Source: Candidatus Sumerlaeota bacterium (GTDB lineage Bacteria; Sumerlaeota; Sumerlaeia; Sumerlaeales; Sumerlaeaceae). Taken from it: 64,000 bases of DNA. The stretch spans positions 1 through 64,000 of the forward strand of contig JAPLSQ010000121.1 in assembly GCA_026398535.1 (NCBI GenBank), given 5' to 3'. How positions within the stretch are numbered: position 1 is the first letter of the stretch; every line of letters starts with the position of its first letter. The notes below the pieces were generated by a model. That model ran no database searches. It was not told where the DNA came from and saw only the letters and a program-made list of their open reading frames with translations. Position numbers and translations under genes: made by a program. This document shows positions 1 through 9,036 of the stretch, piece by piece.

Positions 1-1
1 C

Positions 2-2323
2 GTCGTGGCGGCGGACTTCACAGGCGGCAGTTGGGGGCTTGTGCAACCCCTTGCAAGAGCAGGCGCAAAATACATGCTCAACTCGCATCACATCGTGTAC
101 ATGCCTCACGACGAGATCGGTCCGCGTGAGCTCCCTTTCTGGTGGGAGGGACCCGATGGCAGCCGCCTGATGGTATGGCGCGTCGAGTATACCAGCGCCT
201 TCTTCCCTTACTGCATTCATCCTTCCGGGGCGAAATTCTTAAATCGCGACGACATTGGCGCACAGGCCGCGGATCTGCCGCCTCTCAAGCTGACTGAGAT
301 CGGCATTAAGAACCAGCTTAAAAAGCTTGAGGCCGCAGGCTACGACAAGGACTCGTTGCTTGTCGTCTGCTCGCACGACAATGTGCCCGCGAATCAGGCG
401 CCCGTCGTGATGCGCCACATGGCCGAATGGAACGCGACGCACGAATCTCCGAAACTCATCGTCGCGACACCGGAGGAGTTCTTTGGCGTCATGGAGAAAA
501 AATACGGGGACAAGCTCCCTGTGAAACGCGGCGACTACCGCCAGTGGTTCTGGGGGCCCATACACGACTCGGCTGCCGGGCGGCACGCCGCGGCGGACAC
601 ACTTGAGGCGGAGAAGGCATGGGCGCTGCTCGCCCTGAAAGGCAATGGCGGTTATCCCGAATGGCGCATGGTGCGGCAGCTCGACAACACCATCGAGTCA
701 CTCGCGCATGGCGGCGGCGCGTGGGAAGCGAGTCTCCTGCGCACGGCCTACACGGATTTCCGCACCACGCGGTTGCATGCGGACCTCGTGCACCAGGCCG
801 ACTACATGAGACGCACGGGTGTTGCGATGCTTGGGGACCGCATACATGCAACCTCGCCTTCCATCGCGGTAATGAACACGCTATCATGGGCGCGGTCCGG
901 CGTGGCCGAAGCGCTCGTCACCGCGGAGGACTTCCCTGATGGATCGGGTCTCGTGGATCCCGCGACCGGCAGTGCGGTTCCCTGCGAGCGGGATCCCGTT
1001 GAGCCGGCATGGAAAGGCAAACGCGCCGAGGGGGGCGCGTTCTACAGCATGCTTTCGCTGGGCGAACTCGCGACGACACGCCTGCGCTTCGACGCGGACA
1101 ATGTTCCGGGCATGGGATTCCGGACACTTCGAATTGAGCGCAACGCAGGCGCGGCCACCGTGAAACAACCAGAGACGACCACACTCACACTGCCCGGTGT
1201 GTTCGGCAACCGCCATTGGCGGGTGTCGCTCGACGCCGCAGGACAGATCACGAGTCTTCGCGATCTGAAGGCGGGGCGGGAACTTGTGCCGGAGGGCGCG
1301 GAAGAGCGCTTCGGCGGACTCCAGGTTTCCGAGCAGCAGGCGGGCAAACATGGCTTTCTTGACGTCACATCGCTGAATCTCGGAATCACCACCGCGACGG
1401 CTATTCTTCGGCGCGGACCGGTGGAGACGGCAGCGGAGATTGCGCGCCCGGGCGATGCGCTTGAGCGCACGGAAATCATCCTCGCGGAGGCGCGCCCGGA
1501 GATGCGCATACGATGCCATGTGAACCGCGCCCGCTACGGCGCGATGCGCCTGTCGCACTGGCTCAGACCGCGCATCCTGCTGCCATTTGCCTGCGAACCG
1601 GGCAAATTCAAGGCGATGCTCCAAACTCCCGGTGTTGTGCGCGGGCCGGAAGGCAACAATTACGATCACCCGCGCAAGGGGGAACACGGTTACGGCGCCA
1701 TGTGGTTTGGTTGCTATCTCTCAGACGGTGTTTACGGCGTCAGCATCTCCTCGCGTGCTTGCTACGAACTGCCGCTGATCCAAGACCTCGCCAAACAGAA
1801 ATATCCGCTTGTATCGCTGCTATGCGATCCTTTGGCGCGCGGCGCCTATGATGCGGAACTGCCGTTGGAGATCGTGCTGACGCCCGACAATGGCCAAGCC
1901 GACAAGGCCGAGGTGTATCGCCGCGCATGGAGCGGCGCCATGCCGCTGCGCGCCAAGCCCTGCCGTTCCGTAGCGCTCTCGTTCTGGGACAATCCGAAAC
2001 AGTTCTTCGAGGACGACGATGGCACGACCGACGGTGCGCGCGGCGTGATCGCCGTGGATGCGCCGAATGTGGTTGTTGCCGCGCTCAAGCAAGCGCGCGG
2101 CGGTAGCCCGCGTGAACTTGCGCTGCGTCTTCAGGAGGTCGACGGGCGGAACAAAACCCATGTGCGCGTCACTTTCCCATCCACTGTGCGCGAAGCGTGG
2201 ACCGCGGATATCACCGGGAAGAAGCTTTCTCCGATGCCATTGCGCGACGGCGTCGTGGAATTGAATATCGGCCCCAACGAACTTGCGACCCTGCGACTTG
2301 AAACGAGAAACGGAAATGACTGA
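2..2323 (+). CDS. GH38-like alpha-mannosidase, 5' end outside the window
   Basis: The frame is open at the first base and runs 773 codons to the stop, so the N-terminus, which should hold most of the catalytic half of a GH38 enzyme, is missing. What remains looks like the end of the GH38 catalytic barrel (FWWEGPDGSRLMVWR, then WGPIHDSAAGRHAAADTLEAEK), a helical middle domain and the long beta-sandwich C-terminal region of this family. Family members hydrolyse alpha-mannosides by a retaining mechanism. No signal peptide can be judged. It is followed on the same strand by a serine hydrolase and ABC sugar-transport genes, which suggests a glycan-use locus. The family call rests on recognised motifs and length; the exact substrate is inference. 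The GTG at base 5 is an internal codon, not a start. Confidence 0.7.
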   Translation, partial: VVAADFTGGSWGLVQPLARAGAKYMLNSHHIVYMPHDEIGPRELPFWWEGPDGSRLMVWRVEYTSAFFPYCIHPSGAKFLNRDDIGAQAADLPPLKLTEIGIKNQLKKLEAAGYDKDSLLVVCSHDNVPANQAPVVMRHMAEWNATHESPKLIVATPEEFFGVMEKKYGDKLPVKRGDYRQWFWGPIHDSAAGRHAAADTLEAEKAWALLALKGNGGYPEWRMVRQLDNTIESLAHGGGAWEASLLRTAYTDFRTTRLHADLVHQADYMRRTGVAMLGDRIHATSPSIAVMNTLSWARSGVAEALVTAEDFPDGSGLVDPATGSAVPCERDPVEPAWKGKRAEGGAFYSMLSLGELATTRLRFDADNVPGMGFRTLRIERNAGAATVKQPETTTLTLPGVFGNRHWRVSLDAAGQITSLRDLKAGRELVPEGAEERFGGLQVSEQQAGKHGFLDVTSLNLGITTATAILRRGPVETAAEIARPGDALERTEIILAEARPEMRIRCHVNRARYGAMRLSHWLRPRILLPFACEPGKFKAMLQTPGVVRGPEGNNYDHPRKGEHGYGAMWFGCYLSDGVYGVSISSRACYELPLIQDLAKQKYPLVSLLCDPLARGAYDAELPLEIVLTPDNGQADKAEVYRRAWSGAMPLRAKPCRSVALSFWDNPKQFFEDDDGTTDGARGVIAVDAPNVVVAALKQARGGSPRELALRLQEVDGRNKTHVRVTFPSTVREAWTADITGKKLSPMPLRDGVVELNIGPNELATLRLETRNGND

Positions 2324-4152: not shown

Positions 4153-5076
4153 ATGAGACAGAGCATATCCAACGAATACCTGACCGGTCTTTTATTCGTG
4201 TTGCCATGGATCGCGGGATTTTTCATATGGATTCTGTTTCCCCTCGGATACTCGGTTTACCTGAGCTTCTGCACCTACGACGGGCTGACAGCGCCCTTGT
4301 GGGTCGGCACGCGGAACTATACACGGCTCGCAAGCGACGAGCAGTTCTGGAAAAGTCTCTGGAATACTGTCTACATCACCTTCATTGGCGTGCCCGTCGG
4401 ATTGTTCTTCAGCCTTTGCCTTGCCTTCGCGCTCAATCAGAAACGCCGCGGCATCAGCGTTTATCGCACGATCATCTATCTGCCATGCCTTACGCCGGTA
4501 GTCGCGATGGCCGTGCTATGGATGTGGCTGCTTAATCCCGAGGTCGGCCTCGTGAATGCCCTGCTGCGCAAAACCGATACATTCGTGGCGGCGTGGAGCG
4601 CCGGAATGCTGCGCGTACCCATACCAGGCTGGCTGAACGATCCCCTGTTCTCCAAGCCGGCGCTCATCCTGATGGGATTATGGGGCGCGGGCGGCACAAT
4701 GCTCATCTTCCTCGCGGCGTTGCAAGATGTGCCCCTGTCGCTCTTTGAGTCAGCCGAAATCGACGGCGCCGGATGGTTCCACAAACAACTTCATGTCACT
4801 CTGCCGCTGATCAGTCCCGTCCTTTTCTATAACATCTTGGTGGGCGTCATCGGCGGTTTCCAGTACTTCACGCAATCGTATGTGATTTCAAGCGGAACGG
4901 GCGCACCCCAGGATTCCACCCTGTTCTACGCGCTCTACCTGTTTAACAATGCGTTCCCGTTCTGGAAAATGGGCTATGCCTCGGCAATGGCCTGGATCCT
5001 GTTCTTCATCACGCTGGGCATAAGCTTCGTCGTGTTTCGTCTGAGCGCGCGGCACATCCACTACCAGGGGGAATAA
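4153..5076 (+). CDS. Carbohydrate ABC transporter permease (MalF/UgpA type)
   Basis: A 307-residue integral membrane permease with about six transmembrane segments and the EAA loop that contacts the ATPase (SAEIDGAGWFHKQLHVTLP, about 197-215). It forms the heterodimeric membrane channel with the next gene and takes sugar from the binding protein encoded two genes on. The family (binding-protein-dependent transport system inner membrane component, CUT1-like) imports oligosaccharides or glycerol-phosphate-type substrates. Length is normal. No Shine-Dalgarno sequence precedes the ATG because a LacI-like palindrome occupies that place. No ATP-binding subunit is encoded nearby, so a shared MsmK/UgpC-type ATPase elsewhere is probably used. 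Confidence 0.92.
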   Translation: MRQSISNEYLTGLLFVLPWIAGFFIWILFPLGYSVYLSFCTYDGLTAPLWVGTRNYTRLASDEQFWKSLWNTVYITFIGVPVGLFFSLCLAFALNQKRRGISVYRTIIYLPCLTPVVAMAVLWMWLLNPEVGLVNALLRKTDTFVAAWSAGMLRVPIPGWLNDPLFSKPALILMGLWGAGGTMLIFLAALQDVPLSLFESAEIDGAGWFHKQLHVTLPLISPVLFYNILVGVIGGFQYFTQSYVISSGTGAPQDSTLFYALYLFNNAFPFWKMGYASAMAWILFFITLGISFVVFRLSARHIHYQGE

Positions 5077-5088
5077 ACAGGGGAACCG

Positions 5089-5928
5089 ATGACATCACCG
5101 CCCGCATACAAAATCCTCAGGTCCACAGGCGGTCACGCGCTGCTTGTGGCGCTGAGCCTGATCTTCGCCCTGCCGTTCATCTGGCTTGTGCTTTCGTCGC
5201 TCAAGCCCGCCAGCCAGATATTTGAGTTTCCCCCAAGCTGGATACCGAGGCCAATCCAATGGTCAAACTATCCCGAGGCGCTCGCGTTCATCCCGCTCAT
5301 AAGGTACACGGGCAACACGCTGTTCCTTGCGCTGAGCGGCACCTTCGGTACCGTACTCTCCTGCTCGCTCGTAGCCTACGGTCTGGCCGTGGTGCGCTGG
5401 CGCTGGGCCAACGCGCTGTTCTTCGTGATGCTCACAACGGTCATGATCCCGCCGCAGGTGACGACGATCCCCGTGTTCCTGATCTTCAAACAACTCGGCT
5501 GGGTCGGCACTTTCCGCCCGCTGGTGATCCCCGCATTCTTCGCCAACGCCTTTTTCGTGTTTCTCTTAAGGCAATTCTTCAAGACGATCCCGCGTGATCT
5601 TCTGGACGCGGCGCGCATCGACGGCTGCTCACACTTCGAGGTTTATTGGCGCATCGTTTTGCGGCTGTCGCGCCCCGCCCTCGTTGTCGTCATCTTTTTC
5701 ACCTTCACGGCTTACTGGAACGACTTTATGGGTCCGCTCATTTATCTGAACGAGGATTCCAGCTACACGCTATCGCTCGGTCTTCAGCAGTTCCTGTGCC
5801 AGCACAACGCCAAGTGGGAACTGCTGATGGCCGCCTCCACGCTCATGATCCTGCCCGTCATCATCCTGTTCTTCATTCTGCAGAGGTCGTTTGTGGAGGG
5901 CATCAATCTGACGGGATTGAAGGGATAG
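5089..5928 (+). CDS. Carbohydrate ABC transporter permease (MalG/UgpE type)
   Basis: The second sugar permease subunit, 279 residues, about six transmembrane segments, with the EAA motif DLLDAARIDGCSHFEVYWRIVLR at about 163-185. It starts 12 bases after the first permease ends, with a CAGGGGA ribosome site at the correct distance. It pairs with that permease in the inner membrane. Length and arrangement are those of CUT1 family members; the substrate cannot be read from the sequence. Confidence 0.93.
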   Translation: MTSPPAYKILRSTGGHALLVALSLIFALPFIWLVLSSLKPASQIFEFPPSWIPRPIQWSNYPEALAFIPLIRYTGNTLFLALSGTFGTVLSCSLVAYGLAVVRWRWANALFFVMLTTVMIPPQVTTIPVFLIFKQLGWVGTFRPLVIPAFFANAFFVFLLRQFFKTIPRDLLDAARIDGCSHFEVYWRIVLRLSRPALVVVIFFTFTAYWNDFMGPLIYLNEDSSYTLSLGLQQFLCQHNAKWELLMAASTLMILPVIILFFILQRSFVEGINLTGLKG

Positions 5929-5933
5929 GCGCC

Positions 5934-7292
5934 ATGCCCCTCAAACGCGGACATCTGCCCATGATCAGCGCCAGCGCCGCCGTCGCCGTCATGCTCGTGT
6001 TGGCATGCGCGCTTGTTTACACGTTTTCTGGCGCGCGCCCCGCAACAGCCGGCGGGCGCACGCAAATCACGTTCTGGGTGGGTTGGGCCGGCAAGGAACT
6101 CGACGTCATCCAGCGCTTCGTGGATGAATTCAACCGCGCTCATCCCAACCTGTATGTGAAGACAACATCAATTGCAAACTCCTATCAAAAAATGAAGATC
6201 GCATTCGCAGGCAACGACACACCCGACGTATGCGCGACTGTGTGGACGCATGAATTGGCCGACTATGCCCTTAGGGGTGCGCTCACACCCCTCGATGAGT
6301 ACATCGCGCATTCCACGCGCCGCCCATCGGATTATTATCCCGCAGTCTGGGAAACCTACAAAGTGGGCAATCACATTTACGCGCTCAACCAGACCATGAT
6401 CACATTTTTCATGATGTACAACAAACGCATCTTTCGCGAAGAGGGACTTGACCCCGAGCGCCCGCCCCGCACCCTTGAGGAGTTCGACGACATGGCATGG
6501 CGCCTGACCAAATTCCGCGGCGGCGACAGCAAAGGGGAACTAAAACGTCTGGGCTTTGCCTACGGCAATGCGTTCATATGGAGCATCGCATTCGGCACGC
6601 CATTCTGGAATCCGGAAACGCGAAAGATCGGCGTCGACTGCCCCCAGACCATCCGCTGCCTCAAATGGCTGAAATCCAACACCGATCGCTACAATTATCA
6701 GCGCCTGCGCGCCTTTCAGAGCGCCTTTGGGAACGCCAGTTCGCCGAACAATCCTTTCATATCGGGCAAGGTGGCCATGATCCTCGACGGCGACTGGTAC
6801 CGCTCGATTATCGATGAATACGCCCCGGCGGACTTCGAATACGGGTGGTTCCCCATACCCGCTCCGCCTGAGGGCCGCACCGCAAGCACCTACCTTATGT
6901 CGAGCATGTTCGTGATCCCGGCCGCCAGCCGCCACAAAGACGCCGCATGGCTGCTCATTGAATGGATGACATCAGCTTATGTTAGCTGCAACGTCCATGT
7001 GGGCAAATCGCCAGGCGGGCTCCCCTCCCTGCGCGCCGCTGCCGCCGAACCCGAATATCGCGAGCCTTACTGGCAGTTCGTGAGCGCCATGCTCTCAAGC
7101 CCAAACGCCATGCCGCCTCCCAAGTTTCCGCTCTTCGAGCGTTTCATCTCCGATTACAGCCGCATGGAGGACTATGTCCTGAGCAATGTGAAGAAACCTG
7201 AAGAGGCAGCGGCCGAGTTGCAACGCAACTTCCAGACCGAGGTTGACACCGTATTCGCGTCTATCGGCCTCCAAGATAAACGCGAGAAGTAA
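5934..7292 (+). CDS. Sugar ABC transporter substrate-binding protein
   Basis: A 452-residue extracellular solute-binding protein (family 1, maltose-binding-like). The ATG lies five bases after the second permease stop. The N-terminus has basic residues and one long hydrophobic segment (about 10-34); there is no convincing lipobox, so it is either cleaved or remains as a membrane anchor. The mature part begins with ITFWVGWAGKELDVIQRFVDEFN, a typical start of this fold. It delivers sugar to the two permeases. The frame is open far upstream over the permease gene, but the homologous protein starts here. Confidence 0.9.
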   Translation: MPLKRGHLPMISASAAVAVMLVLACALVYTFSGARPATAGGRTQITFWVGWAGKELDVIQRFVDEFNRAHPNLYVKTTSIANSYQKMKIAFAGNDTPDVCATVWTHELADYALRGALTPLDEYIAHSTRRPSDYYPAVWETYKVGNHIYALNQTMITFFMMYNKRIFREEGLDPERPPRTLEEFDDMAWRLTKFRGGDSKGELKRLGFAYGNAFIWSIAFGTPFWNPETRKIGVDCPQTIRCLKWLKSNTDRYNYQRLRAFQSAFGNASSPNNPFISGKVAMILDGDWYRSIIDEYAPADFEYGWFPIPAPPEGRTASTYLMSSMFVIPAASRHKDAAWLLIEWMTSAYVSCNVHVGKSPGGLPSLRAAAAEPEYREPYWQFVSAMLSSPNAMPPPKFPLFERFISDYSRMEDYVLSNVKKPEEAAAELQRNFQTEVDTVFASIGLQDKREK

Positions 7293-7315: not shown

Positions 7316-7831
7316 CTACTCCAGCGGAATTTTCGCAGGCTTGGAGGCTATCCTGAAGAATTGTTTCCCCGCGTCCGTGCGCGGCTCAAATTGCTTCCAT
7401 TCGAGACGCATGGAGCTTGGCGACACAACCCGCCAGTCCGCGCGCGGCGGCAGCATCATGTTGGTGTCATCCTTCGCATTCTTCGGCCAGCCAAGGTCTT
7501 CCAGCGTGAGCCCGCCCTTGAGCGTCACGTTCGCCACGAGACCGCCAATGGGGCCCTTCCATGGGCCGCCCGTGTCCACGATATATTCAAAGAAGTTCAC
7601 CTGCAAAACATTGTCGCCATTGGGCGCGTGGCGTTCTGATTCCTTAATCGCCGCCCCCACATCAGGAAAACCCACAAGCTGGCGCGCCGGGACATCCTTC
7701 TTCGAACTGCGAAAGGTGAACCTGGCCGTCACTTCGTCGCGCGCATTAATCGTATGATTTTTCGAATGCGATTGTCGGGTATCAAGTCGCCCATTGTCAA
7801 TAAAGATGCCAATCATCCACTTGAGTGACAC
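7316..7831 (-). pseudogene. Truncated ORF resembling the core of DUF4424-type proteins
   Basis: A 171-codon ORF starting at GTG (an ATG follows at 7816) and overlapping the 3' end of the deacetylase gene in another frame. I see no signal peptide and no ribosome site. The stretch VTARFTFRS...LVGFP followed by YIVDTGGPWKGPIG and SPSSMRLEWKQFEP resembles the beta-sandwich of secreted DUF4424-like proteins (family resemblance from memory). The N-terminal export signal and first strands appear to be missing, which suggests a 5'-deleted remnant fused next to the deacetylase. It could still be translated by coupling from the overlapping gene. Confidence 0.45.
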
Positions 7832-8972
7832 TGCTCAGCCGGATGGCATCGGCAATCACGGTTCCCCCCGCATTGTTGTTCGCCAATGTGATCCACGTCT
7901 GCCTTCCCCCCGAAAAAGTGAACTGTCCCAAGGCCATCCACTGCCCGCCATTCACAGATTGATCCTTTAACACCCCGGTGTCGCCGTCCGTGTGATGCAC
8001 CACGTATGAAGCGCCCGATGCGTTTCCCGCGCCTGTTGTCCAGCGGGCATAGACCATGTAGAGGCCGGTTTGTGGCGGTGTGAACATCCACCATCCAACT
8101 GACTGGCCATTGCCCGCCGCCGCGCTATGATAGCCAACGCCGTAATAATCGCTTTGCGATGATCCCGCCGCCCATACGCCGCCCGTCAGCCCGGCGTTGG
8201 CGGAACTCTGGAAAGTTGCTGCCGCCATATCAGGATTGATTCCGTACCTTCTCAGCTCAAACAAGGGCGTGGAGCGATTGTTGACACCGCCATTTGTCGT
8301 TACGGCCGTCAGATACCCCGCGGCCTGTGTTCGCGCAATGACGGTGGTGTTATAACCGCCATACGGATAGGAGAGGTGCCGGCACGTCTTGCCTGGCATG
8401 TGTGACTCGATGGCCGTTTTGGAATTGACCAACTCGTTGTTAAGCGTCGTCGTGTTGACAGTCGTCAGATTCACGTGATTCACCGTGTGCGACTCGGTGA
8501 ATATCACGCCTGATGTCTCCATTTCATTGATCTCGTTCCAGTCGGCATGATCATAACTTGTCACGACGCCCACATAAGCCGTATGGACGAAATTAACGCC
8601 CGTGAATCCGCGCGCGCCCAAAGTGGGATAAGCCACCGTGTAGATCGTGATATAGTTATCATCGAACGTCAGAACAATCGGCTTGGGCGGCAGGGCGGGT
8701 GATCCCGTCTGAATCCAGCTTTTCAGATGATCGAGCGTAATCGTGTGAAATCCGCCGGCCGCGAGCCAATCCATCTGCGCCACGAAATCCGCCGCATTGA
8801 AACCGAAAGCGGAGTCAAGCCCGTGATACATAAAGATCGGCACACCCAAGCCATTGACACTGAGAAATCCCGCGTCTGCGTCATCCACGATAATATCCAG
8901 CGCGGGCGCGGCCCGGCATAACTGGACCGCGAACACGACCGCGAGCACGACACGATGGATAGAATGGTTCAA
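7797..8972 (-). CDS. Secreted polysaccharide deacetylase with golvesin-like domain
   Basis: A NodB-fold deacetylase of about 391 residues that removes N- or O-acetyl groups from an extracellular polysaccharide. The metal-binding motifs are TFDD (102-105), SHTVNH (161-166) and YPYG (202-205). I chose the TTG at 8972 because GGGAG lies eight bases before it and the peptide then begins with a good signal sequence; a GTG at 8999 would add nine residues. The C-terminal part (about 263-381, ending TVIADAIRLSS) is a golvesin-like beta domain, probably for carbohydrate or surface binding. Its expected first strand, IIVDDADAGFLSVNG, is instead at 27-41, ahead of the deacetylase domain. A ten-residue tail, VTQVDDWHLY, follows the domain. 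Confidence 0.85.
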   Translation of the reverse strand: MNHSIHRVVLAVVFAVQLCRAAPALDIIVDDADAGFLSVNGLGVPIFMYHGLDSAFGFNAADFVAQMDWLAAGGFHTITLDHLKSWIQTGSPALPPKPIVLTFDDNYITIYTVAYPTLGARGFTGVNFVHTAYVGVVTSYDHADWNEINEMETSGVIFTESHTVNHVNLTTVNTTTLNNELVNSKTAIESHMPGKTCRHLSYPYGGYNTTVIARTQAAGYLTAVTTNGGVNNRSTPLFELRRYGINPDMAAATFQSSANAGLTGGVWAAGSSQSDYYGVGYHSAAAGNGQSVGWWMFTPPQTGLYMVYARWTTGAGNASGASYVVHHTDGDTGVLKDQSVNGGQWMALGQFTFSGGRQTWITLANNNAGGTVIADAIRLSSVTQVDDWHLY

Positions 8973-9036
8973 TAATCTTACTCCCTGATGGATGATCACT
9001 AAAAGACCTTTTCAGACTTCATTCCATAATGCCGTT

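Follow-up and report, generated by a model that had tools for sequence, protein, structure and literature searches.

A putative secreted NodB deacetylase of Sumerlaeota, predicted to be enclosed by a split golvesin-like domain

In the 64,000-nucleotide stretch of Candidatus Sumerlaeota DNA analysed here (the window; contig JAPLSQ010000121.1), one gene raises the question of whether a golvesin-like domain that begins before a deacetylase domain and ends after it forms a single fold around the enzyme, and of how its two parts came to be so placed. The gene (7797..8972, minus strand) encodes 391 residues, as supported by the open frame, the Pfam matches and full-length relatives (nine genomes, its own included). 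It begins with a TTG codon at the 8972 end, a GTG at 8999 being a possible alternative, and a probable ribosome-binding site, AGGGAG (8981..8986, minus strand), lies 8 bases upstream of the TTG. Residues 1-24 (8901..8972, minus strand) probably form a signal peptide, judged by eye from a hydrophobic stretch followed by RAAPA; the corresponding region ends in AQ or similar in most homologues. The reading that we favour, with a probability of roughly three in four, is that the product is a secreted NodB/CE4 deacetylase whose barrel lies within a Golvesin_C sandwich in the same chain, the first strand of the sandwich having probably been relocated.

The catalytic domain occupies residues ~44-258 (8199..8843, minus strand), where PF01522 (Polysacc_deac_1) scores 75 bits at 94-220, above its cut-off of 23.1, and the predicted fold matches 6dq3 with Z 22.8 and an rmsd of 2.9 over 213 residues. 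Among solved structures, PplD, IcaB, PgaB and Bacillus deacetylases come closest. A BFVD fold search returned chiefly esterase, tail-fibre and deacetylase matches of a generic sort. By homology, the Asp-His-His metal triad and the catalytic Asp are all present: D104 and D105 of the TFDD motif (8658..8663), which we take to be the general base and a metal ligand, respectively, and the further metal ligands H162 of the SHTVNH motif (8487..8489) and H166 (8475..8477), all on the minus strand. The best NCBIfam models are the equivalogs for PgaB (TIGR03938, 81.6 bits) and IcaB (TIGR03933, 55.6 bits), both scoring far under their cut-offs of 321.9 and 248.35. The gene product would be a metal-dependent NodB/CE4-type polysaccharide N-deacetylase, secreted and most like the PgaB/IcaB/PplD group (4f9d, 4wcj, 6dq3), whose members share the fold and motifs of its catalytic domain; we know of no golvesin domain in any of these three.

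By its Pfam matches the protein looks like an ordinary NodB-golvesin protein and the split goes unnoticed, which calls for caution in domain annotation. Golvesin_C (PF25275) reaches 101.5 bits against a curated cut-off of 31.6, and its continuous match, at residues 261-380, covers only profile positions 11-131 of 132. This golvesin remainder (residues 262-380; 7833..8189, minus strand; profile 10/11-131), in which TGGVW begins at residue 263 and TVIADAIRL spans residues 371-379, has no first strand of its own. The strand stands instead before NodB, at residues 26-41, DIIVDDADAGFLSVNG (8850..8897, minus strand), of which residues 27-41 are the motif IIVDDADAGFLSVNG. When the NodB stretch was removed in silico, the Golvesin_C match of the window protein extended to profile 1-131 and rose from 103.1 to 108.4 bits (+5.3), and that of the homologue L019/L066 extended to profile 1-132 and rose from 136.6 to 141.1 bits (+4.5). 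Both halves of what the initial annotation had read from the sequence, namely an opening strand ahead of NodB and a second part lacking one, are thus borne out by Pfam and by the matrix test described below. Golvesin_C itself is very common in Sumerlaeota, with matches in 30 of 40 genomes at E 1e-15 and up to 38 in one genome (G030).

Relatives were sought in 99 genomes and then in 40 genomes of the phylum Sumerlaeota, and other NodB proteins with the same split, for which the initial annotation had proposed a search, do exist. Including the window protein, the split build is found in ten proteins from 9 of the 40 Sumerlaeota genomes, in four family groups (the others are L018, L019, L020, L021, L022, L023, L024 and two neighbours in L047). 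Asp30 and Phe36 of the first strand are invariant in all ten, as are D104, D105, H162 and H166 of NodB. In one genome, two adjacent split copies lie about ten bases apart (L072:3732-4904 and 4917-6092, plus strand), and the catalytic motif of the first reads VADD rather than TFDD.

A second, tandem build is found in 22 relatives from 14 genomes, in which a signal peptide and NodB are followed by a complete golvesin domain. These proteins (for example, L029 and L031) resemble the window protein in NodB, at 34-52% identity, and in domain order; however, most begin with NodB directly after the signal peptide, and their golvesin domain, which follows a linker that is often proline-rich, retains a first strand of its own. 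Both builds occur together in the genomes G002, G003 and G006. Three tandem frames (L048, L050 and L051; 716-742 residues) carry three successive golvesin domains after NodB.

To place the first strand, we used a matrix built from the first strands of 15 golvesin domains, none of them adjacent to NodB, six of which came from later repeats of three tandem proteins. Before NodB, the matrix scored 11.5-23.5 in all ten split proteins, a level matched by 0-2 of 2000 shuffles, and at most 1.4 in the tandem relatives (21 of 22 scorable). Before the golvesin core the picture is reversed. The split proteins gave −2.8 to 7.2, nothing convincing, the top score of 7.2 (L019) sitting on the last NodB helix, whereas 20 of the 22 tandem relatives gave 3.3-26.1. 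For several of the lower tandem scores, as many as 305 of 2000 shuffles do equally well, so that position, too, counts in these assignments, and the two misses, L032 and L058, carry what appear by eye to be degenerate forms of the strand. The two placements exclude each other between the 10 split and 22 tandem proteins, and none of these 32 proteins was found to have a first strand both before and after NodB, as an intermediate would.

How the strand came to stand in front was approached through trees of both domains. The NodB tree (43 rows: 10 split, 22 tandem and 11 NodB proteins without a golvesin match) gathers the split proteins into one clade (100/98) beside 17 tandem proteins, with five other tandem proteins branching earlier, and forcing the tandem proteins into one clade is rejected (p-AU 0.0115). 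With the golvesin-free NodB domains as the outside group, the tandem order is therefore likely to be the older one, and the split probably arose once. Since NodB already had a golvesin domain behind it, the simplest event is that strand 1 of an ancestral NodB-golvesin protein moved from behind NodB to the N-terminus. One possible route is that the gene acquired, by fusion, the start of another gene that opens with a signal peptide and golvesin strand 1, and then lost the strand behind NodB. Six genes of the same phylum do start in this manner, as judged by eye (L166, L171, L122, L005, L014 and L167), and could have donated such a 5′ end. A nested domain would then have formed with no domain insertion at all, one strand of the second domain of a tandem protein having moved before the first and so enclosed it. 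We give this history an even chance; if true, the two states standing side by side would offer a natural comparison of one family before and after nesting, bearing on how nested enzymes come about and on the consequences of being nested.

The same present-day structure would also follow from a true insertion, as the initial annotation had proposed, in which NodB entered between strands 1 and 2 of an existing secreted golvesin protein. Golvesin proteins beginning with a signal peptide and strand 1 are available as hosts, and the golvesin core trees (128 rows, then 99 once seven long or odd rows and 22 near relatives had been removed) fit either history: in the free tree, 8 of the 10 split cores lie near 14 golvesins that are not next to NodB, and grouping the split cores with these 14 costs only 1.74 log units (p-AU 0.462, not rejected). 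However, holding the split cores together with those of their 17 tandem sisters improves on the free tree found by 4.99 log units (p-AU 0.576), and the split NodB domains nest among NodB domains already followed by golvesin, so that an insertion requires NodB to have joined a golvesin domain a second time, independently and with the domain order unchanged. We therefore regard insertion as unlikely, although it is the most serious competitor. The 22 relatives with NodB and a full golvesin domain but no N-terminal strand, among which the split clade arises, are homologues of the very kind that the initial annotation had named as speaking against its proposal; they tell against the insertion history and leave the nesting itself in place.

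For the displaced strand to enclose NodB, it has to pack in the golvesin sheet, and this was assessed with AlphaFold2 models. The model of the window protein, built with ten split sequences, has a mean pLDDT of 69.0 and a pTM of 0.56, but its first 20 residues reach only ~35 and it is therefore insufficient alone. The homologue L066 (56% identical, with the same proteins as rows) gave a better model, with a mean pLDDT of 84.1 and a pTM of 0.65; its first ten residues have a pLDDT of 82 and the next ten 67, with a strand at 2-6. VIA-align superposes the L066 model on 6f2p with Z 22.0 and an rmsd of 1.4 Å over 133 aligned residues (42% identity), model 1..361 falling on chain 905..1040, where these ranges give the first and last aligned residues only. 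The last NodB helix of the model ends at 240, leaving ~119-121 residues behind NodB up to 361, so that at least ~12-14 of the 133 aligned residues must precede NodB. The aligned range suggests that these front residues are the N-terminal segment, as long as the alignment follows the order of the chain. The same two-part range is also matched by MiXBM (7ehg) and several CBM35 modules, with Z ~12-14. The model of the window protein agrees (2..362 on 6f2p 901..1040, Z 13.6, rmsd 2.2, 120 aligned), although its N-terminus is poorly placed and the count alone is not decisive. Completion of the golvesin sheet by the N-terminal strand in cis is thus supported for the split homologue by the structure prediction that the initial annotation had suggested as a check, and for the window protein it is likewise a predicted feature.

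Cis packing has a counterpart in trans: the N-terminal strand might complete the golvesin sheet of a neighbouring molecule, giving a strand-exchanged dimer. The sequence would be the same in either case, and a single-chain model cannot show a dimer; still, the L066 model does put its strand in cis, with the N-terminal pLDDT of 82 noted above, and we consider exchange improbable. That the segment is a chance or decorative likeness in a linker after the signal peptide, on a golvesin fold that does without its first strand, is very improbable indeed, for although other golvesin matches in the same genome are also cut at the start (for example, C38, profile 23-131) and the window protein's own model is weak at its N-terminus, the motif with Asp30 and Phe36 recurs in every split protein, is equalled by at most 2 of 2000 shuffles and is absent before NodB in the tandem relatives.

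Returning to the enclosed barrel, the mature protein would run from sandwich strand 1 through the catalytic barrel to the remaining golvesin strands. Both junctions are short, so that the binding sandwich should be held beside the barrel by two connections; these short connections are what suggests the rigid fixing of the catalytic domain on the binding domain that the initial annotation had envisaged. The golvesin sandwich may keep the enzyme on a cell-envelope or matrix polysaccharide during removal of N-acetyl groups. Deacetylase activity and substrate are presumed; as a best guess, the secreted enzyme would N-deacetylate a GlcNAc-containing polysaccharide, on which the golvesin domain keeps it in place.

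This kind of nesting is already known from BoPDA, a putative polysaccharide deacetylase of Bacteroides ovatus (PF15421), in whose solved structure a carbohydrate-binding β-sandwich (63-85 and 381-441) is interrupted by a CE4 domain (86-380; PMC11713874). BoPDA likewise has a signal peptide and a CE4 domain nested in a binding sandwich; it differs in that the sandwich resembles CBM2b and chitin-binding domains, two strands precede CE4, a lipid attachment site is present and the full His-His-Asp triad is lacking (PMC11713874). PF15421 is not among the Pfam families of the window protein up to E 1, and its BoPDA-like nesting is seen from the sequence and the predicted structure of a homologue rather than from a solved structure. 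No BoPDA entry appeared among the VIA-align matches of either model, an absence that carries no weight. The terminal module of the Paenibacillus nanensis xanthan lyase PXL (6f2p, 905-1040) has the same fold and belongs to the same sequence family as the golvesin domain, but is continuous and attached to a PL8 lyase; excerpts of a review mention an additional, unclassified terminal xanthan-binding module in this enzyme (PMC10881899). A split golvesin domain came up neither in the golvesin literature, surveyed by title, nor in that on domain insertion with carbohydrate binding, which yielded BoPDA and papers on other proteins, and the excerpted literature on Sumerlaeota and polysaccharide yielded nothing on the window protein. 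As far as these searches show, what is new is the golvesin version of the nesting together with its tandem sisters. Nesting of an enzyme in a binding module is known, but un-nested close relatives are rare; since this deacetylase family has both states, the effect of nesting on stability, geometry and activity, and the evolution of nested folds, can be asked directly.

The split form is likely to be restricted to Sumerlaeota, on the basis of scans of a genome collection, viral contigs, plasmids and two other phyla. Two narrow peptide patterns picked out 11 loci in the genome collection, eight of them Sumerlaeota loci with the split form and three matching the NodB residues only or nearly so. 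One scan of viral contigs gave 83 pattern matches and no relative. Among plasmids, there are matches in 807 records, but in no case do they cover more than 80% of the query, and all of the 20 matches listed lie within residues 3-261. At E 1e-50, relatives were found in 0 of 195 genomes of the phylum of G066, an empty result of little weight, and in 1 of 301 of the phylum of G098, the single match (L172) being a NodB protein in which no golvesin part was seen.

The gene sits between a leucyl-tRNA synthetase gene and a sugar-type ABC transporter set. A frame of 171 residues (window 7316-7831, minus strand) overlaps its 3′ end by 35 bases; it matches no Pfam family, and none of the eight named split loci holds a relative of it. 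Four neighbouring genes of the window show no conserved neighbourhood across these eight loci except at L065, where a beta-lactamase-type protein adjoins the split gene. In two of the eight, a GHL10 glycosyl-hydrolase-like gene stands beside the split gene (L066:2187-4817, minus strand; L067:3286-4863, plus strand); PgaB likewise joins a deacetylase to a hydrolase-like domain. The GHL10-like gene of L066 itself has golvesin matches.
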